64,000 nucleotides of DNA from Microcoleus sp. CAWBG506. Its GTDB lineage: Bacteria > Cyanobacteriota > Cyanobacteriia > Cyanobacteriales > Microcoleaceae. Both the position numbers and the translations under genes were made by a program. Under the pieces are notes generated by a model. The model was not told where the DNA came from, made no database searches, and saw only the letters and a list, made by a program, of their open reading frames with translations. The stretch lies in contig JAHREW010000007.1 of NCBI GenBank assembly GCA_020883125.1, positions 1 to 64,000 of the forward strand, given 5' to 3'. Within the stretch, counting starts at the first letter, position 1. Every line of letters begins with the position of its first letter. Shown piece after piece: positions 6,881 to 20,232 of the stretch.

Positions 6881-7285
6881 TTGTGCAACGGTGAAAAGCA
6901 TGACTGCAACAAATATGATTCCGGCATCAGCAGCGACTTACTTGAAGACTCAGAATTATCATCAACAGACAACAATGAAAATAACGCAGATATAGAAGGC
7001 ATAAGTGCCGATTTACTGGAAGACCCAGAACTATCTTCAGAGGATAACAATTCTAACCAAGTAGATTTAGCAGGCATAAGTGCCGACTTACTGGAATACC
7101 CAGAACTATCGTATGTTGATGATACTCTTACCGCATAAATTCCCAAAGTCTCAGCTAAAAATACCGACGATGACGCACTCTCGGCAGAAGCCGTTCCCGA
7201 ACCAACTACAGCATTAGGAACTTTATTAGCTCTAGCTGTATTTCCTGTAATTAAAAGACTCATAAACCGAAAAAACCAAGAGTAA
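6881..7285 (+). pseudogene. Chimeric remnant: module A start fused to module C tail, in-frame stop
   Basis: The first dozen residues (CNGEKHDCNKYD) match the N-terminus of the zinc-ribbon proteins at 8111 and 12559. The reading then jumps into the 25-residue [12 protein letters not shown] repeats of the PEP-CTERM proteins at 9978 and 14975, with three units. The frame stops at TAA 7136-7138 right after DDTLTA, yet continues in the same frame to 7285 with an intact AVPEP tail, hydrophobic stretch and basic end. It is therefore a deletion product of an A...C gene pair that later gained a stop. The final TAA overlaps the ATG of the next remnant exactly as at 17093-17097. It may still be transcribed, but a functional product is unlikely. 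Confidence 0.8.
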
Positions 7286-7387
7286 TGAAAACCCTCTACA
7301 CCCTGCTATATGCCCTCAGCATCATCCTCATTAACCCCTGGGGAAACAGCCGATGCTCGATAATTGCTGCCTTCACCCTCAGCATCG

Positions 7388-9977: not shown

Positions 9978-12047
9978 ATGTTATTTAGACAATATCCCCA
10001 AGTTTTGTTAACATCATTCTTAATAGTTGGATTGACGAGCAGAGCAAGTATTGCTTTTAATATTATTCCCCCAAATTCCAATGCTACCAGGTTTTATAGG
10101 CCTGAATCTATTTACCAAATAGATAAGAATCGAGAAAGCAAAACGGAGATAGATATGGGATTATGGTCGGAGCCTCTGCCCCATGGTGGAACGTCTACTT
10201 TTAAAAATGCTCTTTCATTATGGTCGTCTTTTAAGTCTGAACAAGGTCGGTCTGGTTGGTCTCTTAATGCAGCCGCAGAGGACTTAAAGGGTAGTTTTGA
10301 GGTGATAACTTATCAAGCTTGCTCTCCTCTGGATGGGTGTGGTGGGGCTAGTACGCCTATCAGTGACATAAATCCAACTTATCGAGGAGTGGGCTCTCTT
10401 TTTCACTTAAAGTATCATCCAGGAAAGGGCGATCCTCAACCAGGTGAAGGTAAACTTCATTGGATTCAGATGGTGCAAGCTAACTACGGTAGCAATGTAG
10501 CAGGTGCATCTCTGATACATGGTGTTCCTTTTATCGATAATTTTAATAGAAAACAAAATCCCTACTACGACCGTCCAAACTCTCCTGTTGCAGGTGAAGA
10601 CTTCTTTATGGATCAACCATATGCTGGCGGTTTAAAAAAGGCGTCGGCTAGCAGAAACAATTATTTCAAAGCGCAACTCTACCTAGTTCAAGAGACTACA
10701 CCACCAAGAAGTAAGAAAAGAACAATCACAATTTACAACGGAATCAAATGGGGTTGGAAAAACACAGTAACTCGTCGCAAAGAACCAGTTCCCGTTCCCG
10801 TTCCAGCTCCAAAGCCAACTAAAACACCCGAAATTGAACTTCCACTTTGTCCGCCAAATATGTTGACTAAAAGCGGTAGCACGATTATCGCCAGCAGTAG
10901 CAGCGGTGGCGGTGGCATCGGTTGCGTGGCAGTATCGCCAACACCATCGCCAACCCCGTCAGCAACACCTCGACCAACCCCGTCAGCAACACCTCGACCA
11001 ACCCCGTCACCTTTGCCAAGCCCTCGTCCAGCACCTGGACCAAGCCCGTCACCAACACGATCGCCCATAATATTAGTATCACCTGCACCATCACTTAGGC
11101 CTGCACCGTCACCCGGGCCTGCACCAGTACCCTCAGCTTGGACTTCATCACCAACTCCTACGCCCTCAGCTTGGACTCCATCACCTTGGCCTACGCCTGC
11201 AACATGGGCAACAACAGCAACACCATCACCTCGGCTAACCTCGTCACCTTTGCCAACTCCCTCACCTTGGACTCCCTCACCCTGGCCTACACCTACACCT
11301 TGGGTAACATCTCCACTAGGGTCAACATCATCAACTGTCGTTGTCTCAACAACAACTACTACTACATCACCCTCATCCTTTCAGCGGCCCAGCTCGCCAA
11401 TTCGCGCTGTCCGCGCCAACGCAACTTTTGGTATTGATAGCGATGCCACAGACCTAGCAAATATCAGCAGTGAGTTACTTGAAGACCCAGAACTATCATC
11501 AACAGACAGCAGTTTGAACAATGCGAAGGTAGCTGGCGTTAGTCGTGATTTACTAGAAAACCCAGAAGTATCATCAACAGAAAGCAACGAAAATCAAGTC
11601 AATTTAGCTAGCATCAGCAGCGACTTACTTGAAGACTCAGAACTATCATCAACAGACAGCAAACAAAACCAACTCAATTTAACTAGCATCAGCAGCAGCT
11701 TACTTGAAAACCCAGAATTATCATCAACAGACAACAACAAAAATAACGCAGATATCGGAGGCATTAGCGCCGACTTACTTGAAGACACAGAACTATCTTC
11801 AGAGGATAACAATTCCGATGCAGTAGATTTAGCAGAAATCAGCAGCGACTTATTGGAAGACCCAGAACTCTCGTATGTTGATGATACTCTCACTGCAAAA
11901 AATCAAAATGTTTCATCGAAAAACACCGACGACGATGCTCTCCCAGCCGAAGCCGTTCCCGAACCCACCAACGGATTAGGCACTCTCTTAGCACTCACCG
12001 GATTAGGCCTATTCCTCAAGCTCAAAAACAGGAAAACCAAAGAGTAG
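9978..12047 (+). CDS. Module C: secreted Pro-rich repeat protein with PEP-CTERM tail
   Basis: A 689-residue exported protein. A signal peptide (1 to about 27, ending SIA) is followed by a conserved domain (about 30-260) containing EDLKGSF and [14 protein letters not shown], which is shared with the protein at 14975. Next are a Gly/Ser block ([19 protein letters not shown]), a long Pro-rich stalk of PTPSATPRP and WTPSPWPTP units, and six units of a 25-residue acidic repeat built on [15 protein letters not shown]. The C-terminus is a classic PEP-CTERM signal: AVPEP, a hydrophobic stretch ([15 protein letters not shown]) and a basic end. An exosortase would be expected to cut it and place it at the cell surface. 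Function unknown; an adhesin or envelope role is inference. Confidence 0.88.
11451..11886. repeat. 75-bp coding tandem repeats (25-residue unit)
   Basis: Six tandem units encoding D-L-A[17 protein letters not shown] followed by a variable Asn/Glu-rich spacer. Related arrays lie at about 16577-16960 (five units) and 6920-7130 (three units). The varying copy number across paralogues points to unequal recombination between units. Confidence 0.85.
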
Positions 12048-12558: not shown

Positions 12559-12999
12559 ATGAACTACTGGCAAGAACACTACGGTGACAAGCATTACTGC
12601 AACAAATATAATTGCAGACACCCTTCAAAGCTCGAATACCATCAATTTTGTAGCAGTTTCTATCAAACAATTAGACCTAATCAGACTGGCGACTATAAGT
12701 TGGAGTTTGTACCGCTGACGGCGAAGCAAATTGCCGATCAGCAACGCCTACCGCAGCATTGGCGTCTACAAATATCCTACGGTTTTCCCCCCAGTGGAGT
12801 TCGGATGCCGGGAGATGATCGGTCAAAATCAGTGTTTGATTGGCCGATGTCTAGACCAGTTCAGCACTATACTCAGCCAGTGCAGGGATATTACAAGTAC
12901 ACTTTGATTAAGTCGCCTGGAGAGTCGAGTGGAAGTGGCGGTAAATTGTTTTGGCTGATGGTAATTGGTGCGGCGGTTTGGTTCTGGTTTTTCCGCTGA
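12559..12999 (+). CDS. Module A paralogue: zinc-ribbon-like, fourth Cys lost
   Basis: A 146-residue paralogue of the protein at 8111, with the same start context and an almost identical tail from GESSGS through the FWLMVIGAAVWFWFFR membrane helix. In the N-terminal ribbon the first three cysteines are kept (HYCNKYNC...QFC) but the fourth position is Phe (QFCSSF), so zinc binding may be weakened or lost. The middle region keeps the SEFV-like (LEFVPLTAKQIADQQRLP) block. It is followed by module B after 26 bp. Function unknown; the divergence of a ligand between paralogues hints at relaxed constraint or specialisation. Confidence 0.8.
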   Translation: MNYWQEHYGDKHYCNKYNCRHPSKLEYHQFCSSFYQTIRPNQTGDYKLEFVPLTAKQIADQQRLPQHWRLQISYGFPPSGVRMPGDDRSKSVFDWPMSRPVQHYTQPVQGYYKYTLIKSPGESSGSGGKLFWLMVIGAAVWFWFFR

Positions 13000-13025
13000 T
13001 TGTCCGGTGATTCAGGGAGCGAGCG

Positions 13026-14282
13026 ATGAGGTATTTTCTGCGGTTTTTATTGGCTTTAGTGATGGCTGCGCTCCTGGTAGTAACCTATGGGAGTATACAA
13101 GCTGTTGGCAATCAAAATTCAAAACTTGAAAAGGTAACAAATATGGCATCTAGAAAATCTAAGCGCAGCAATCTTGTTAAACAAGATGGTCTCCAACTGG
13201 AAATCATAGGGCCAGAAATTGTGGCATTATCCATCCCTGAAAACAAGCCCAGTGCCACTGCTCCATTGAGCTTTACTGTCAGCGTTAGCAATAATACACA
13301 AGCTCCTATTCCACTCATAGATGATGCTTTAATTCCAGAAATATTTGGGCCCTCTGGTCAAGCACTGCACCGAAGAGAACCGATAAATAGGCAGGCTGCG
13401 AGCGGAGAATATGATGGCTCGTTAGTTGGGGTCGGGCAGCAGACATCTCAATCTATGGAGGGAAGACTGTTTTGGAAAAATAATTTGCTTCAACTGATAT
13501 TACATTCCCCAACCTACGATGAAAGCCCTATAGACCTCGATAAATCTTGGTCTTTTGATACTGTGGGGCCGGGAGACTATCAGATTCGATTCACTTCTGA
13601 AACCCCTACTGGGACGATATTATACCCAGATCCAGTCACTTTTATTGAGACTAGACAAGAAATTGGAATAGAAGTAACTGGAACAAGTCAGTTGGCAACT
13701 CCCTTAGCTAATTTTCGGCTACTTCAACCTGTGGGATTGAATAACAGTGCAGTGGAAATAGATGGTATTCGTTTTGAAACTTTCATACCAGAGCCATTGT
13801 TAACCCTGCCAAATAAGAGTAACAGTTCATACCAATCTGTACAGATTGGTATGCGGATCACAAATAATACTCTAACCCCATTTCACTTTAGCTTTTATGG
13901 TAGTTATTACTCAGACCTGGTAACGCCAGATGGTGAGGTGAAGCGGGCAGCCTGTGGTAACGACTGGATGAGAGGGCCAGAAGAATCTGACTTTTTGTTA
14001 GTCACACCCGGAAAAAGTCTGGCATTCTTTCCAGATATCGGCCTCTTCTGGACTAATCATAGCCAATTTTCGCTTAATGTCTCTAGCGGATATGGTGGCG
14101 GATGCTCTTTTGAGCAACTCAAGCAAGGTATATATCACTTCCGCTTCCAGTATTACAATACGAGTGATACCATACCGAAGACAAATCTTGCTGGGGAGTC
14201 GATTGAAAGTCGGCCAATAGAAAAAGTTTGGACTGGGTGGGTGGATACTCCCTTTGTTGAATTCCGCTTAATCGAGCTTTGA
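13026..14282 (+). CDS. Module B paralogue with signal peptide or membrane anchor
   Basis: A 418-residue protein with two of the beta-rich domains seen at 8621: domain 1 (LQLEIIGPEIVALSIPEN...) and domain 2 (VEIDGIRFETFIPEP...), each ending in a TPxxxFRL strand. It differs at the N-terminus, where MRYFLRFLLALVMAALLVV is a good signal peptide or signal anchor, so this copy should be exported. An internal ATG at 13143 (MASRKSKR) has a leader like that of the unsignalled paralogue and is a possible alternative start. Both forms could exist. It is preceded by module A (26 bp) and followed by a single-domain copy at 14404. Confidence 0.8.
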   Translation: MRYFLRFLLALVMAALLVVTYGSIQAVGNQNSKLEKVTNMASRKSKRSNLVKQDGLQLEIIGPEIVALSIPENKPSATAPLSFTVSVSNNTQAPIPLIDDALIPEIFGPSGQALHRREPINRQAASGEYDGSLVGVGQQTSQSMEGRLFWKNNLLQLILHSPTYDESPIDLDKSWSFDTVGPGDYQIRFTSETPTGTILYPDPVTFIETRQEIGIEVTGTSQLATPLANFRLLQPVGLNNSAVEIDGIRFETFIPEPLLTLPNKSNSSYQSVQIGMRITNNTLTPFHFSFYGSYYSDLVTPDGEVKRAACGNDWMRGPEESDFLLVTPGKSLAFFPDIGLFWTNHSQFSLNVSSGYGGGCSFEQLKQGIYHFRFQYYNTSDTIPKTNLAGESIESRPIEKVWTGWVDTPFVEFRLIEL

Positions 14283-14403
14283 GATGAACGAGGAATGATT
14301 CAAGGCGATATAGTCACAAATACTGAATTAATATCTGTTCAGTTACAGTATACATCTTGTTTCAAAAAAAGCTGCAATTAAAAATTTATTAGTAACAAAG
14401 AAG

Positions 14404-14949
14404 GTGCGTATTATGATATCTAATAAAATCAATAATGTAGTTGAAGCAAATGGCATTCTATTTGAAACTTTGATGCCGGAAGTAGTAGTAACAATCCCAA
14501 ATAATGGCGGTATCAGCCCCGTGCAATTTGGGATTCGTGTCACCAATATTTCATCACATTCTTATCGTTTTATGCTCCCTTACGTACTCCCAGAACTTTT
14601 TTACCCAGACGGGCAAGCAATGCAGAGAAGTTATGTCAGTAATGTGTATCTTCCATCTAAAAGATATTATTTTCAGTTGGCTAGACCTCAAGAAAGTTTG
14701 ACATTCTTTATGAAGGCTGAGTTTAAATGGTATAGGAACTCACTGATACTTATAGGTAAGGCTACAGATGGAGGGATTTGGAGATTTTACGACTTTCAAA
14801 GTGGTATATATTTAGTTCAGTTTACTTATACAAATGAAAATAAAAAGAAACAAATAAGGTGGAGGAGTGGAAAATTCAGTGTCTGGCAAGACTTATGGGT
14901 TGGTCAAGTATCAACTCCTCAGATCGAGTTTTGCCTGCAATCATCCTAA
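14404..14949 (+). CDS. Module B paralogue, single domain
   Basis: A 181-residue protein containing one copy of the module B domain: VEANGILFETLMPEVVV, PVQFGIRVTNIS and the closing STPQIEFCL strand. No signal peptide. It corresponds best to domain 2 of the proteins at 8621 and 13026, so it may have arisen by partial duplication of 13026. The ATG at 14404 is preceded by AGGTGCGTATT; a Met two codons later would also serve. Followed by module C after 25 bp. Function unknown. Confidence 0.72.
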   Translation: MRIMISNKINNVVEANGILFETLMPEVVVTIPNNGGISPVQFGIRVTNISSHSYRFMLPYVLPELFYPDGQAMQRSYVSNVYLPSKRYYFQLARPQESLTFFMKAEFKWYRNSLILIGKATDGGIWRFYDFQSGIYLVQFTYTNENKKKQIRWRSGKFSVWQDLWVGQVSTPQIEFCLQSS

Positions 14950-14974: not shown

Positions 14975-16549
14975 ATGTTGTTCACGGTAAAAAAAATGCG
15001 AGTACAACGTTCAGTAACATATCTATTCGCTTTCTTGACAACACCATTTGTCATTATAAATACGCCTGACCAAGGAAGCGCATTTACTCTGACATATAAC
15101 CCCTTATTCCCCGAGCTATATCGTACTGGCGCTTATTACAAAACCCCTGTGGGTAATGACGGCCATGTCTGGGTAGATCAACCTATTAGACCATTACCTC
15201 CTCCAGGACCAAACTCTCAAATTCAGCGTTTATTAAGGCAGTCTTTCTTTTCTCCAAAGTGGACATTTAAAACTGCCAAGAAAGACTTAAAAGGTGCTTT
15301 TGATATCAAAGCTTATTATCCTTGTGCTCCTGTGCCTTCTACAATTCCATGCGGTCAAGGGATACCTGATATTGTTGTTCCCAAATTAAATGTAGTAGGC
15401 TCTGCTATTGAATTAAATTACATTCCGTTTGGCGAAGATCCGCGACCGAGTACAGGTCGAATTAGATGGATTCAAAGGGTAGCAAGTAACCATTCCATAA
15501 AGAGCGATATTCACGGCGATAAGGAAAATGTTATCGACATTGATGAGGGCGCACCATACCCTTACTACGATGGAGAGATAGGACAAGTATATAACTCTAG
15601 GATTCATCCTTTTTATGATGTACCCTCCAGAGGTGACGTTGATTCGAGTCATGACTGGGTAGCTCAACTCTACCTAGCTTACGAAACTACACCCATAGGC
15701 GGCGCACAAAGGACAATTACTATTTACAACGGAATCCAATGGGGCTGGCACAACAGAGTAGCGGAGAAAAAAAAACAACCAGTTCCCGTCCCCGTTCCTG
15801 TTCCAAAGCCAACTCCGACTCCAGTTCCATTTATAATTCCAATTCCATCATTTCCACCAATTCCCAATCTAAATCCACCTCAACGTGCACTGTGTCCACC
15901 AGGTTTCTCTCCTAAAAGTGGCAGCACGATTATCGCCAGCAGTAGCAGCGGTGGCGGTGGCATCGGTTGCGTGGCAGTATCGCCAACACCATCGCCAACC
16001 CCGTCAGCAACACCTCGACCAACTCCGTCGCCAACTCCTCGACCAACTCCGTCACCGAGACCATCGCCAACTCCTCGACCAACCCTGTCACCGAGACCAT
16101 CGCCAACTCCTCGACCAACCCCATCGCCGACACCAGGACCATCACTCGTAGTGTTACCTGCACCGTCACCCTCACCTTGGACTCCGACACCTTTGCCAAC
16201 AACCTCACCTTGGACTCCAACACCTTGGCCGACGCCTGCGCCTTGGGCTTCATCACCTTGGTCGACGCCTGCGCCTTGGTCAACATCATCATCAACATCA
16301 TCAACATCATCATCAACATCATCATCAACATCATCATCAACATCATCATCAACATCATCAACATCAACAATCGTTGTTGTCTCAACGTCAAAACCCAGCC
16401 CAGCGCCGTCACCCTCCCCCAAACCCAGTTCTCTAAACCGCACTAACGCCAACAGAGTTTTTGCTACCGACTATGTAGAGTCTGAGTTACCACTTCCCGA
16501 TACAAAACTCGGTAATACCACAGCAAATACCGACTCAGATTTATCCTAA
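14975..16549 (+). CDS. Module C paralogue truncated by in-frame TAA
   Basis: A 524-residue exported protein homologous to 9978: signal peptide (cleavage near residue 35), conserved domain with KDLKGAF and [14 protein letters not shown], the identical [19 protein letters not shown] block, a Pro-rich stalk and a Ser/Thr-rich (SSST)n segment. It ends at TAA 16547-16549. The same frame then stays open to 17095 and encodes five acidic repeats and an intact PEP-CTERM tail, so one nonsense codon separates a 706-position frame into two pieces. If only the first piece is made, the protein would be exported but not exosortase-anchored. A start within the first few Met codons is equally possible (M8 also has a basic context). 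Confidence 0.8.
   Translation: MLFTVKKMRVQRSVTYLFAFLTTPFVIINTPDQGSAFTLTYNPLFPELYRTGAYYKTPVGNDGHVWVDQPIRPLPPPGPNSQIQRLLRQSFFSPKWTFKTAKKDLKGAFDIKAYYPCAPVPSTIPCGQGIPDIVVPKLNVVGSAIELNYIPFGEDPRPSTGRIRWIQRVASNHSIKSDIHGDKENVIDIDEGAPYPYYDGEIGQVYNSRIHPFYDVPSRGDVDSSHDWVAQLYLAYETTPIGGAQRTITIYNGIQWGWHNRVAEKKKQPVPVPVPVPKPTPTPVPFIIPIPSFPPIPNLNPPQRALCPPGFSPKSGSTIIASSSSGGGGIGCVAVSPTPSPTPSATPRPTPSPTPRPTPSPRPSPTPRPTLSPRPSPTPRPTPSPTPGPSLVVLPAPSPSPWTPTPLPTTSPWTPTPWPTPAPWASSPWSTPAPWSTSSSTSSTSSSTSSSTSSSTSSSTSSTSTIVVVSTSKPSPAPSPSPKPSSLNRTNANRVFATDYVESELPLPDTKLGNTTANTDSDLS
16280..16369. repeat. Coding microsatellite (ACATCATCATCA-type)
   Basis: A run of TCATCA/ACATCA triplets encoding about 30 Ser/Thr residues in the protein at 14975, absent from its paralogue at 9978. 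Triplet slippage would change length without a frameshift. Confidence 0.9.
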
Positions 16550-17095
16550 AATCTTGGATACTCATCAATTCATAACGATGCCACAGATTTAGCAAATATC
16601 AGTGGCAACTTACTCGAAGACCCCGAACTATCATCAACAAACAACAACGAAAACCAAGTTGATTTAGCAAGCGCCAGTAGCGAATTACTGCAAGACCCCG
16701 AATTATCATCAACAGATAGTAACGCAAATGAACTCGATTTAGCAAGCGCCAGTAGCGAATTGCTGAAAGACCCCGAATCATCATCAACAGAAAGTAACGA
16801 AAATGAACTTGATTTAGCAAGCGCCAGTAGCGATTTACTTGCTGATCCAGAATTATCATCAACAGACAGTAACGAAAATGAACTTGATTTAGCAAGCATC
16901 AGCGGCGACTTACTCGAAGACCCAGAATTAGCATCAAAGGATAACAACTCCCTAGCCTCCAAAACTAACAAACGTGACGACGATGCCCTCCCCGCCGAAG
17001 CCGTTCCCGAACCTAACACGGAATTAGGAACGCTATTAGCATTCACCGGATTAGGCATATTCCTCAAGCTCAAAAACAGGAAAACCAAAGAGTAA
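16550..17095 (+). pseudogene. 3' part of module C gene after nonsense codon (repeats + PEP-CTERM)
   Basis: In frame with 14975-16549 but beyond TAA 16547-16549. It encodes [11 protein letters not shown], five 25-residue SSELLxDPELSS units and the tail AVPEPNTELG, a hydrophobic stretch and KLKNRKTKE. All 181 codons are free of stops and well conserved with 9978, so the nonsense change must be recent, or the segment is still used (readthrough, or internal start, for example at Met 16760). The last base of its stop (17093-17095) is the first base of the downstream ATG. Confidence 0.75.
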
Positions 17096-20070
17096 TGAAA
17101 ACCCTTTACACCATCCTGTATGCCCTCAGCATCATCCTCATCAACCCCTGGGGAACTACGCGGGGCCTCATCTGGACATCGCCCAAAGTATTGATTATTT
17201 GGCTCATAATTTCCCTCAACATCGCGCTTTTCTTATCGCAAAAAACATCGATCGCAATTCCCCAAAACTGGAAAAATAGCCTGATACTTTGGACGATATT
17301 TCTCTCCATAGGAGCCATCTCTACCCTGCACAGTCCCTTCCCTTTAACCTCTTTTCTCGGTCAAGACCAAATGGGCGACGGTTGGCTCTACTGGCTGTTA
17401 ATCGCTGCCTTTACTCTCAGCAACAGCTTACTCTTAATCGCACGCCCGCAACTGCTCAATTCACAATTCCAAGGATTGCTAATTGGTGGTATTATTCTCG
17501 CTATCAGTATCTTCCCCCAAATCGTGGACTGGCGGATTGACTACACGGCTACAATGGGCAAACTGATTAGGGGTGATGTTTTAGCCAGCAGTATTTTTCA
17601 AGGACAACAACCAATAGGATTGTACTCTCACCGCGGCCACGCAGCTATAGTTTTAGCGTTGACGGCAATTACTGCGATTGTCGGTTGGTTTTGGAGATTT
17701 ACGAATACTACATTAACTGCTATTACTTTGATTTTAACTGTTCCCGCACTGCTACTAACTTCTACTCGCAGTGCAATTGTAGCTTTGATTGTTGCCTGTG
17801 CTTATTTGTTGGGACGCCCTTATTACAAAATTCTCACCGGCATGGCCTTGATTAGCGCCCTCGCTGTGGGCATTATGACCCTTAACAGACCCCTCAACTG
17901 GCAAAAACCGAGCATCGAACAAGTCATGTCCAGCCGATCGCCCATGTGGGAACTCGCAGCCAGAGGTATCAAAAAACGCCCGTTATTTGGATGGGGATTT
18001 GACGGCTTAGGGATTGCCTATCCTTATATCAGGAATCCTCAAGTAACTCCGAGAGTTGTCAACTTGAACGAGTTTACCTACGACTATATTAACATAAAAG
18101 GTGAAATTAGCACCAGAGAAATTCCTACTTATAAAGCTCACAATTGGATTTTGGATACAACGGTATCAGTTGGGATTTTGGGGCTGATTGCTGCGATCGC
18201 ACTTTGGGGATATTATTTCTCTTTGGCGCTGCAATCCTCTCTGCGCGGGATTGCAGCAGTTGCTATTGCTTATCTGGTTTTTGCTGTGACTTGGTTCGAT
18301 TGCGCTCAATACGCACATATTGCCTGGTGGACGCTCAGTTTCGCCACAGTTAGATATCCTTGTTCTCAAGATAACGAGAAAAGAAGATTGATTTCAAATC
18401 TAGTTCAGGTTTATATGTTTCTGAGTTTATTTATTATATCGTTAATCGGAAGTTTTTATGTAACTAACTTCAATAATATTAACAACTTTATGGTCAAAGC
18501 AAAATCATCGCTATTTCCCGGACAACTGTTAGGCTGCGGAAGTTCCAGCGGCGGGCCGACGGATAATCCGATAGATTCTCGGTACGGCAAAAAATCTTAT
18601 CCTTGGACATCGGAAATTAAATGGAGTTGCGCATACAATATCAAAGATTTTCCAGGTGGCACTCTGATTGACAGGTTTAACTTTGTCAGAGATATTGCTG
18701 CTGCTAACGGTGGCGGAGTTATCTATTTTCCAGCGGGGACTTATGAGTTTGCAGATAGCATCTATTTGAAGTCGGGAGTAGTCATTCGAGGGGAAACTCC
18801 CGCAACAACAGATGCTAAACAAAGTTTGTACAATCCTCCGACAAAATTTGTGTTTCCTAAATACGAACCGGAACTTTCAGGGAATGGAACTCCGAACAGC
18901 ACGGCTTTTAAAAGAATCTTTACTGAAAATCCTAATACTGATAGCAATATCGGTGTTGTAAATCTAGATATTAACCGATCGCCAATTTACTTGCTCAGCA
19001 ACCTCGACTACAGTCAAAATAGCAATATTGTGGTTTACGGCCTCCGCAGCAATAACGTTGCGGAACCCAGCCCCTCAGTCCCAAACCTAAATTTTCAAGC
19101 AGCGTGGCAGCGATATGCCAATCCCTATGTCGCTAATATCAAAGTTAATGCTTTGGCTAATGTGTTAATTGCCAACAATCGGCTTAACGATAGTATCACA
19201 GATAATTACCAGCAACCTGAATATCAAGTGAAATCTGGGGAGACAGGTGCGATCGCCCAATATGATGTTAGATTCGACTACAGCAACCATTTCGGCATTT
19301 TAGTCAACCGTTCCAAGGCGGGCAAATCTGAAGAAAACTTTGTGCCGACGGCGGAACCAAAGGCTGAGCCGGGTCTGTTTCGCAAAGGGATTGCGATTCG
19401 TGATAATTGGGTTTATCATACCATGAGGGCAGGAATCCGAGCGTCGGGAAATGGGTTGGTTGTTAAAAATAATGCGATTCGAGATGATGTCGGCAAGCGC
19501 TGGTGGACGGACGATATAGGTGCGGGAGTCGCTGGGGAAAATACGAGTTTTAACAGTCGGGCGATCGAATGGGCCGGCTGGAATGTTTTAATCCAAGATA
19601 ATGATTTTCAAGTGTACCGGCACCGACTGAAAGATTCAAAGTTTTTCAGCAATGATGGAGGGGGAATTGTGATTCATGCTTGCTGCGGCGGGACTTCGGT
19701 TCGGCAGGCGAATATTGTCGGCAATTCTGGCAATTCTTACATTGGGATTGTTCAAGTTCCTGGGATTCGAGATGTGAGGATTTTTGGGAATAAGTTATTG
19801 TCGAATGTTAAGGGTGATTTGCCTTTGATTTATGTGAATGCGGACAGCGAGCAAAAAAATCATGAAATGCAGAATGTGATTGTAGAAAATAATACGGTTA
19901 AGGGAAGTTTGCTGGCAGTCGCGAGTCAGGGAGGAAGTGGAAATGCGATTAGAAATAACAGCGGTTTTAATGTTGGTTCGATTAAATCTTCTTGTCAGGT
20001 TACGGTTAGTGAAAATAAGGGCTTTGTGAGGTCTCCTTGTTGGCGGCGCAGAAACGAAGACGGCGGTTGA
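17095..20070 (+). CDS. Module D: O-antigen-ligase-like membrane protein fused to parallel beta-helix
   Basis: A 991-residue protein. The first 460 or so residues are polytopic, with about ten or more hydrophobic helices. The middle segment SRSPMWELAARGIKKRPLFGWGFDG and a later HNWILDTTVSVGILGL match the Wzy/WaaL O-antigen ligase family, which joins or polymerises surface glycans at the outer face of the plasma membrane. From about 510 the sequence becomes a pectate-lyase-type right-handed beta-helix (AANGGGVIYFPAGTYEF, then many N-x-(V/I)-x-x-N rungs) to the end. Such a ligase-plus-beta-helix fusion is unusual. The start overlaps the stop of module C (TAATG), implying translational coupling. 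The last codons and the TGA lie inside a genomic repeat (20059-20088), so the original C-terminus may be altered. Substrate unknown. Confidence 0.82.
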   Translation: MKTLYTILYALSIILINPWGTTRGLIWTSPKVLIIWLIISLNIALFLSQKTSIAIPQNWKNSLILWTIFLSIGAISTLHSPFPLTSFLGQDQMGDGWLYWLLIAAFTLSNSLLLIARPQLLNSQFQGLLIGGIILAISIFPQIVDWRIDYTATMGKLIRGDVLASSIFQGQQPIGLYSHRGHAAIVLALTAITAIVGWFWRFTNTTLTAITLILTVPALLLTSTRSAIVALIVACAYLLGRPYYKILTGMALISALAVGIMTLNRPLNWQKPSIEQVMSSRSPMWELAARGIKKRPLFGWGFDGLGIAYPYIRNPQVTPRVVNLNEFTYDYINIKGEISTREIPTYKAHNWILDTTVSVGILGLIAAIALWGYYFSLALQSSLRGIAAVAIAYLVFAVTWFDCAQYAHIAWWTLSFATVRYPCSQDNEKRRLISNLVQVYMFLSLFIISLIGSFYVTNFNNINNFMVKAKSSLFPGQLLGCGSSSGGPTDNPIDSRYGKKSYPWTSEIKWSCAYNIKDFPGGTLIDRFNFVRDIAAANGGGVIYFPAGTYEFADSIYLKSGVVIRGETPATTDAKQSLYNPPTKFVFPKYEPELSGNGTPNSTAFKRIFTENPNTDSNIGVVNLDINRSPIYLLSNLDYSQNSNIVVYGLRSNNVAEPSPSVPNLNFQAAWQRYANPYVANIKVNALANVLIANNRLNDSITDNYQQPEYQVKSGETGAIAQYDVRFDYSNHFGILVNRSKAGKSEENFVPTAEPKAEPGLFRKGIAIRDNWVYHTMRAGIRASGNGLVVKNNAIRDDVGKRWWTDDIGAGVAGENTSFNSRAIEWAGWNVLIQDNDFQVYRHRLKDSKFFSNDGGGIVIHACCGGTSVRQANIVGNSGNSYIGIVQVPGIRDVRIFGNKLLSNVKGDLPLIYVNADSEQKNHEMQNVIVENNTVKGSLLAVASQGGSGNAIRNNSGFNVGSIKSSCQVTVSENKGFVRSPCWRRRNEDGG

Positions 20071-20232
20071 AACCGCGCCTACAAAAACATAGACGGCGGT
20101 TGAAACCGCGCCTACAAAAACGAATTCTGCCTCCGCAGACTGAAGAGCATAATATAATCTTCACAGTCCCTTCTTCAACCCGCGGAGGCGCGTGAGTGTT
20201 TGTGTAGACGCGGTTTTAACCGCCCAGTCTTC
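20059..20232. repeat. Direct and inverted copies of a cyanobacterial palindromic repeat
   Basis: The 30-bp unit GACGGCGGTTGAAACCGCGC... occurs at 20059-20088 and 20092-20121, and a related inverted copy (TGTAGACGCGGTTTTAACCGCC) spans about 20197-20232. Between them CCTCCGCAGACTG and CCCGCGGAGG also pair. The whole forms a long potential stem. The TGA of the preceding gene (20068-20070) lies in the first unit. Confidence 0.85.

Follow-up and report, generated by a model that had tools for sequence, protein, structure and literature searches.

A window of 64,000 nucleotides (nt) from the cyanobacterium Microcoleus sp. CAWBG506 (positions 1 to 64,000 of contig JAHREW010000007.1, GenBank assembly GCA_020883125.1) contains, on the forward strand at 17095–20070, a frame of 991 codons that begins with ATG at 17095, ends with the stop codon at 20068–20070 and has no internal stops. 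This frame joins a ligase-like membrane domain of the WaaL/Wzy_C type to a right-handed parallel beta-helix. The fusion was proposed in a preliminary description of the locus, along with a search for it in relatives, and the same in-frame join was indeed found in other genomes: six of the 59 relatives searched, all six from the same genus (G001, G004, G007, G008, G023, and G025), and G220, which belongs to another family. In the alignment across these eight genomes, the linkers differ and the frame is conserved. A misreading of two adjacent genes as one was rejected because the 991 codons contain no stop and seven further genomes have this join. The fusion is a real, partly conserved, new combination of domains.

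Stand-alone relatives align to the ligase-type domain over approximately residues 1–420 and to the beta-helix over approximately residues 479–991. The boundaries in the preliminary description, about 460 residues of polytopic protein followed by a 480-residue helix, are therefore slightly shifted, and an additional transmembrane segment located in the linker is, by comparison with the stand-alone relatives, an anchor of the helix rather than a part of the polytopic domain (see the table for the refined limits). Around the linker (alignment columns 406–520), at most three of the seven rows from the genus share any start-type codon; thus, separate internal translation of the helix is not conserved. 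At the other end of the gene, a 30-base unit, GACGGCGGTTGAAACCGCGCCTACAAAAAC, occurs twice at positions 20059–20121 (identified by eye); the 3' end of the fusion gene, with the codons of the C-terminal DGG and the stop codon, falls within the unit.

The assignment of the N-terminal half to the ligase family is borne out by a Pfam match to Wzy_C (PF04932) at residues 211–367, with an E-value of 2e-12 and a score of 47.6 bits against the gathering cut-off of 31.7, and by a profile search in which WaaL (7tpg) was the sole PDB sequence matched by the ligase family profile at an E-value of 1 or better (E = 3e-6). In the profile alignment, R225 (17767–17769) and R281 (17935–17937) fall on arginines of WaaL. 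Both residues and H349 (18139–18141) are invariant across the 31 aligned rows, the window sequence included, and so are K347 and N350; H349 is not placed on WaaL by the alignment. An excerpt of a study on PglS describes arginines and a histidine that were proposed as the active site of this enzyme by comparison with WaaL (PMC12800693). The invariant residues of the ligase half fit the arginines and the catalytic histidine of the WaaL/PglS type, with a predicted location on the periplasmic side of the membrane. Among the Pfam matches listed, there was no PglL-type or Wzy_C_2 profile at an E-value of 1 or better. The genome of CAWBG506 additionally encodes two stand-alone paralogues of the ligase (77–78% identical) on another contig.

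The beta-helix identity of the C-terminal half, likewise anticipated in the preliminary description, follows from a confident AlphaFold2 model of this part alone (pLDDT 89.3, pTM 0.92), a right-handed parallel beta-helix. The 50 fold matches listed by VIA-align have Z scores of 20.4–26.5 and are headed by the mannuronan C5-epimerases AlgE6 (26.5) and AlgE4 (26.4), the alginate epimerase/lyase 8ja4 (25.9), RbmB (24.2), and the tailspike of phage Sf6 (23.7); other high matches include phage tailspikes, polygalacturonases, inulin lyases, and the adhesin PfbA, the latter high in Foldseek. At the sequence level, the similarity is far more modest: Pect-lyase_RHGA_epim (PF12708) matches residues 535–587 with an E-value of 1.4e-4 and 22.2 bits, below the 27-bit cut-off, and the helix profile matches the AlgE4 sequence weakly, over 41 positions (E = 8.3e-5). 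The AlgE epimerases, although closest in fold, carry a motif without a counterpart in the fusion family: the DPH(D) motif of the AlgG/AlgE epimerases described in an excerpt of PMC4444821. The DPH motif is present in none of the 35 aligned helix rows, and membership in the C5-epimerase (AlgE/AlgG) family was rejected on this basis. Across these rows, 65 polar columns show conservation in 34 or all 35. Among the 28 stand-alone helices, 85 polar columns deviate in at most one row; 62 of these are fully preserved in the seven fusion rows, and 23 are not. The fold and the conserved residues would fit either of the roles originally suggested for the helix, that is, holding or trimming a glycan.

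Most of the stand-alone helices are about 45–58% identical to the fused one. All 32 stand-alone beta-helix relatives that passed the length filter of the anchor scan have an N-terminal transmembrane segment, with more basic residues before than after it. The linker segment of the fusion resembles these N-terminal anchors, which suggests that the fusion consists of a whole ligase followed by a whole membrane-anchored beta-helix protein. WaaL has twelve transmembrane segments, its C-terminus is cytoplasmic, and ligation by WaaL is periplasmic. With the C-terminus of the ligase half in the cytoplasm as in WaaL, the helix, separated from it by the anchor segment, would be periplasmic.

Table 1. 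Features of the fusion locus and of the associated gene cassettes in the window.
Feature	Position	Strand	Basis
WaaL/Wzy_C-type ligase domain, residues 1–420	17095–18354	+	Pfam Wzy_C, WaaL 7tpg profile match, invariant columns
Linker, residues 421–478, with extra transmembrane segment at about residues 436–454 (nt 18400–18456) after basic residues	18355–18528	+	Hydropathy and charge scan
Right-handed parallel beta-helix domain, residues 479–991 (stop 20068–20070)	18529–20067	+	AlphaFold2, VIA-align
TAATG, stop of PEP-CTERM frame overlapping the start of the fusion	17093–17097	+	Sequence; same overlap at many sites in relatives
PEP-CTERM gene, likely partner or acceptor, Pro/Ser/Thr-rich, with in-frame TAA at 16547–16549	14975–17095	+	707-codon frame with one TAA
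Three upstream cassette genes, families of unknown function	12559–12999, 13026–14282, 14404–14949	+	Homologues in the same order before other ligases
Second PEP-CTERM protein, intact (689 aa) and paralogous to the interrupted protein	9978–12047	+	NCBIfam TIGR02595
Decayed ligase start (residues 1–26, 81% identical) from another cassette copy, behind PEP-CTERM tail at 6920–7282	7285–7362	+	

The gene directly upstream of the fusion encodes a protein with a C-terminal PEP motif, a hydrophobic stretch and a basic tail, and its Pro/Ser/Thr-rich middle part would suit O-glycosylation. Its match to TIGR02595 (12.8 bits) falls below the cut-off of 16, and that of its paralogue at 9978–12047 (16.6 bits) is just above; both proteins contain repeated stretches and long Pro/Ser/Thr-rich parts. 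Three exosortase-family matches above the cut-off were detected in the CAWBG506 genome. The preliminary description considered the PEP-CTERM gene to be translationally coupled to the fusion and its product to be the possible acceptor of the ligase. The PEP-CTERM frame is, as described, immediately upstream and shares the TAATG overlap with the fusion start, but it contains an in-frame TAA, so that translation begun at 14975 stops about 545 nt before the ligase, and the coupling may be broken in this particular genome. The equivalent frame of G001 (locus L140) is stop-free over 708 codons.

The pairing itself extends well beyond this locus. Among 35 ligase start sites, a clear PEP-CTERM tail lies at most 151 nt upstream at 29 and a degenerate one at 2 more, and at 23 sites, one of them degenerate, the tail is at most 3 nt from the ligase start; these counts are a reading of the scan output, and many of the sites come from one genus and are not independent. 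At the remaining four sites (the decayed remnant in the window, L146, L190, and L191), the scan found no PEP-CTERM tail, although the tail of the remnant was seen separately, within a decayed cassette copy at 6920–7362 where it, too, includes an in-frame TAA. The three genes between the two PEP-CTERM genes (12559–14949) have no Pfam match above the cut-off. Arguably, the conserved pairing of a PEP-CTERM gene with a ligase may be more important than the fusion.

Within the genus, the fusion is present in 7 of the 29 genomes, that of CAWBG506 included, with the frames of G007 and G023 ending early (966 and 983 residues, respectively). Across the order, the helix was detected in 50 of 291 genomes and the ligase in 55 of 388. 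Outside the genus, where fusion status was determined from the open-frame length and, for fetched loci, also by blastp, the helix is fused to a ligase only in G220, which encodes a second, stand-alone helix as well. A class-level scan produced a match of any kind in 19 of 388 genomes and no further fusions by frame length; a contig scan yielded 71 loci, among them six full fusions, each in a metagenome-assembled genome, and the split locus of G015. Separate genes, which the preliminary description would have expected in relatives if the frame were not a genuine fusion, do exist in other genera, but an adjacent pair of intact ligase and helix genes was found neither among 20 mapped loci nor among the 71. 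In PLSDB, at the sensitivity used, there was no plasmid-borne fusion, only ligase matches on 5 records. Cyanobacterial plasmids that carry stand-alone relatives of the ligase are NC_019677.1, NC_019773.1, NZ_CP064892.1, AP018245.1, and NZ_CP063800.1.

Several genomes of the genus appear to have lost the helix. G014 and G010 retain pieces of the linker that extend as far as the anchor segment, contain stops and are followed by no helix, and by this sequence evidence are clear losses. G028, G005, and G021 share a short tail that resembles the start of the linker, followed by a stop, again with no helix; these are likely losses, the alternative being a ligase that never had a helix. The ligase of G021 has an in-frame TAG and that of G010 begins at a contig end. 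The genes downstream in G005, G014, and G021 are the same as those downstream of the fusions in the window, G004, and G001, indicating that this is the same site. In G015, a deletion has put the two halves in different frames. Relative to G007, about 296 nt spanning the junction are missing, seen as alignment gaps of 124 and 172 nt separated by 4 aligned bases, and the anchor segment is lost with them; for this reason, G015 was rejected as an ancestral two-gene state.

Pairwise dN/dS values among the seven fusions of the genus (21 pairs) are 0.12–0.18 for the ligase and 0.15–0.29 for the helix, compared to 0.14–0.62 for the short linker; as judged from these ratios, both halves are under purifying selection. 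In phylogenetic trees (41 helix and 43 ligase rows, after removal of duplicates, the partial ligase L038, short rows and, inadvertently, the helix of G054 at L062), the helix halves of the genus and G220 fusions form one clade (support 100/96) apart from the stand-alone helices, and the ligase half of G220 falls outside the ligases of the genus. Constraining the fusion-locus ligases of the genus and G220 to one clade was rejected in the AU test, performed without 7 divergent ligase rows (p = 1.8e-80), and grouping the fused helix of G220 with the stand-alone helices of its own family was marginally rejected in the helix clade test, performed without L129 (p = 0.04); the tested clades were named after the trees had been seen, so that both p-values are rough. 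This pattern can be explained either by a single fusion event followed by losses and by exchange of the ligase half or by the capture of one helix lineage on two occasions.

The explanation that we favor, tentatively and with slightly less than even confidence, is that the fusion acts in the inner membrane as a glycan ligase of the WaaL/O-oligosaccharyltransferase type that serves the partner PEP-CTERM protein and carries a tethered beta-helix acting on the same glycan. The ligase would take a glycan linked to undecaprenyl diphosphate, and the arginine/histidine site on the periplasmic side would transfer it to the product of the adjacent upstream gene, the Pro/Ser/Thr-rich PEP-CTERM protein; the beta-helix, likewise periplasmic, would cut, epimerize, or hold that glycan. 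We infer the topology, the acceptor role of the PEP-CTERM protein, the action of the helix on the same glycan, and the chemistry. A more specific version, which we regard as rather unlikely, is that the helix edits the lipid-linked periplasmic glycan, by epimerizing or cutting it, and the ligase then attaches the edited product to the PEP-CTERM surface protein, all in a single chain; if so, a surface protein of a filamentous cyanobacterium would be covalently tied to the sheath polysaccharide.

A number of observations weigh against the ligase–acceptor explanation. The model of the full-length fusion is weak (pLDDT 75.5, pTM 0.57), as is its match to WaaL (E = 1.5e-3), and the hydropathy scan recognizes nine segments in the ligase part, which leaves the side of its C-terminus unsettled. 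The match to TIGR03097, the putative exosortase A-associated O-glycosylation ligase, scores 24.7 bits, far below the cut-off of 188.1. The PEP-CTERM frame is interrupted in the window, and the gene in G004 looks broken too, with a frame of 478 codons that starts inside the N-terminal match. The glutamate of a DGEG motif, missing from at most one of the 28 stand-alone rows, is replaced by glycine in the six genus fusion rows, although it is retained in G220; this replacement suggests that in the genus fusions catalysis may be altered or lost, with binding retained. Five genomes of the genus keep linker remnants without the helix, and in a sixth (G015) the helix is disrupted. Finally, in the 20 and 71 mapped loci the stand-alone helix genes are not near ligase genes, and recR is close by (within about 550 bases) in 14 of the 51 fetched beta-helix loci, for example, L040, L042, and L154, with some genomes counted twice; the usual role of the helix thus need not involve a ligase. 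Otherwise, the neighbors of the stand-alone helix genes provided no functional hint.

Some of these observations would be accommodated by a noncatalytic helix with the sole function of binding the glycan or of presenting the acceptor to the ligase: the glycine in all six genus rows is accompanied by several neighboring changes and yet by low dN/dS, and the high fold matches include an adhesin, PfbA. We consider this unlikely, however, given the 62 stand-alone-conserved polar columns that persist in the fusions, which include candidate Asp, His, Arg, and Tyr residues, and the glutamate of G220. The membrane half could instead be a Wzy-type polymerase, with the helix editing or trimming the growing polymer. 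In favor of this possibility, the Wzy_C family comprises polymerases as well as ligases. It also has a parallel in alginate-producing bacteria, whose polymerization and export complex includes a beta-helix epimerase in the periplasm, according to an excerpt of PMC4444821. The adjoining PEP-CTERM gene at most sites, WaaL as the only PDB match at the threshold used, and the lack of any polymer-synthesis gene in a Pfam search that covered five cassette neighbors all speak for a ligase and make the polymerase improbable.

The remaining two possibilities would deprive the fusion of functional meaning. It could be an evolutionary accident, in which secreted or membrane proteins became joined by read-through and the halves are functionally unlinked; the losses and the split described above, as well as the scarcity of fusions (7 of 29 genus genomes plus G220), are compatible with such a history. 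The maintenance of both halves in frame and under purifying selection, together with the single helix clade, which implies that the fusion has lasted in two families, renders a mere accident quite improbable. That a stop codon between two genes was lost through a sequencing or assembly error could be suspected because the six full-fusion records of the contig scan are all metagenome-assembled, but eight genomes with the same in-frame join, differing linkers, and a conserved frame, and the occurrence in the mapped loci of no adjacent intact two-gene arrangement, only the deletion derivative G015, make this hardly credible.

Compared with characterized systems, the fusion shares with the O-antigen ligase WaaL (7tpg/7tpj) the polytopic Wzy_C-type architecture and the two aligned arginines, and has in addition the invariant K-x-H-N signature in a long loop; it differs in the low overall similarity, in having a PEP-CTERM partner instead of a lipopolysaccharide gene, and in the C-terminal beta-helix. 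The putative TIGR03097 ligases likewise belong to a PEP-CTERM setting, but the match of the fusion to this family is partial as well as weak. RbmB and the other beta-helix polysaccharide lyases have the same right-handed fold and, to our knowledge, no ligase half; the comparison with them is one of fold. RbmB is characterized as a polysaccharide lyase in an excerpt of PMC11637428. PglS and PglL are WaaL-like, with an Arg/His site and a protein acceptor, and PglS also has a C-terminal periplasmic domain; in the excerpt of PMC12800693, this domain comprises residues 438–548, compared to the 513-residue beta-helix of the fusion. The C-terminal half also resembles what we call the stand-alone membrane-anchored beta-helix protein of filamentous cyanobacteria, which has its own anchor but is encoded by a separate gene and almost always keeps the DGEG glutamate.

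Judged by titles and the opening lines of abstracts, none of the papers retrieved by our searches of the open-license PMC literature concerns such a ligase/beta-helix fusion, and in the main text of a paper on cyanobacterial Wzy/WaaL proteins (PMC4594306) a term search found none of the words "fusion," "pectate," and "PEP-CTERM." An excerpt of PMC12188702 characterizes PEP-CTERM proteins as rich in glycosylation-linked residues and as presumed links between exopolysaccharide and the cell surface, and reports that motility and biofilm formation in Nostoc punctiforme require an exosortase. In filamentous cyanobacteria, the stop–start arrangement of PEP-CTERM and WaaL-like ligase genes points to a specific candidate enzyme–acceptor pair. 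With the fusion comes a further domain that may act on glycans and, hence, a hypothesis for the fate of the glycan prior to its attachment or in the course of it.

Relatives of the beta-helix (36% identical) were also encountered outside the cyanobacteria, at loci L204, L206, and L207, in metagenome-assembled genomes labeled Cytophagaceae. Two further loci, L085 and L086 (G257 and G299), contain giant open frames of 1972 and 1686 codons, respectively, both of which partially match the beta-helix close to their beginning.

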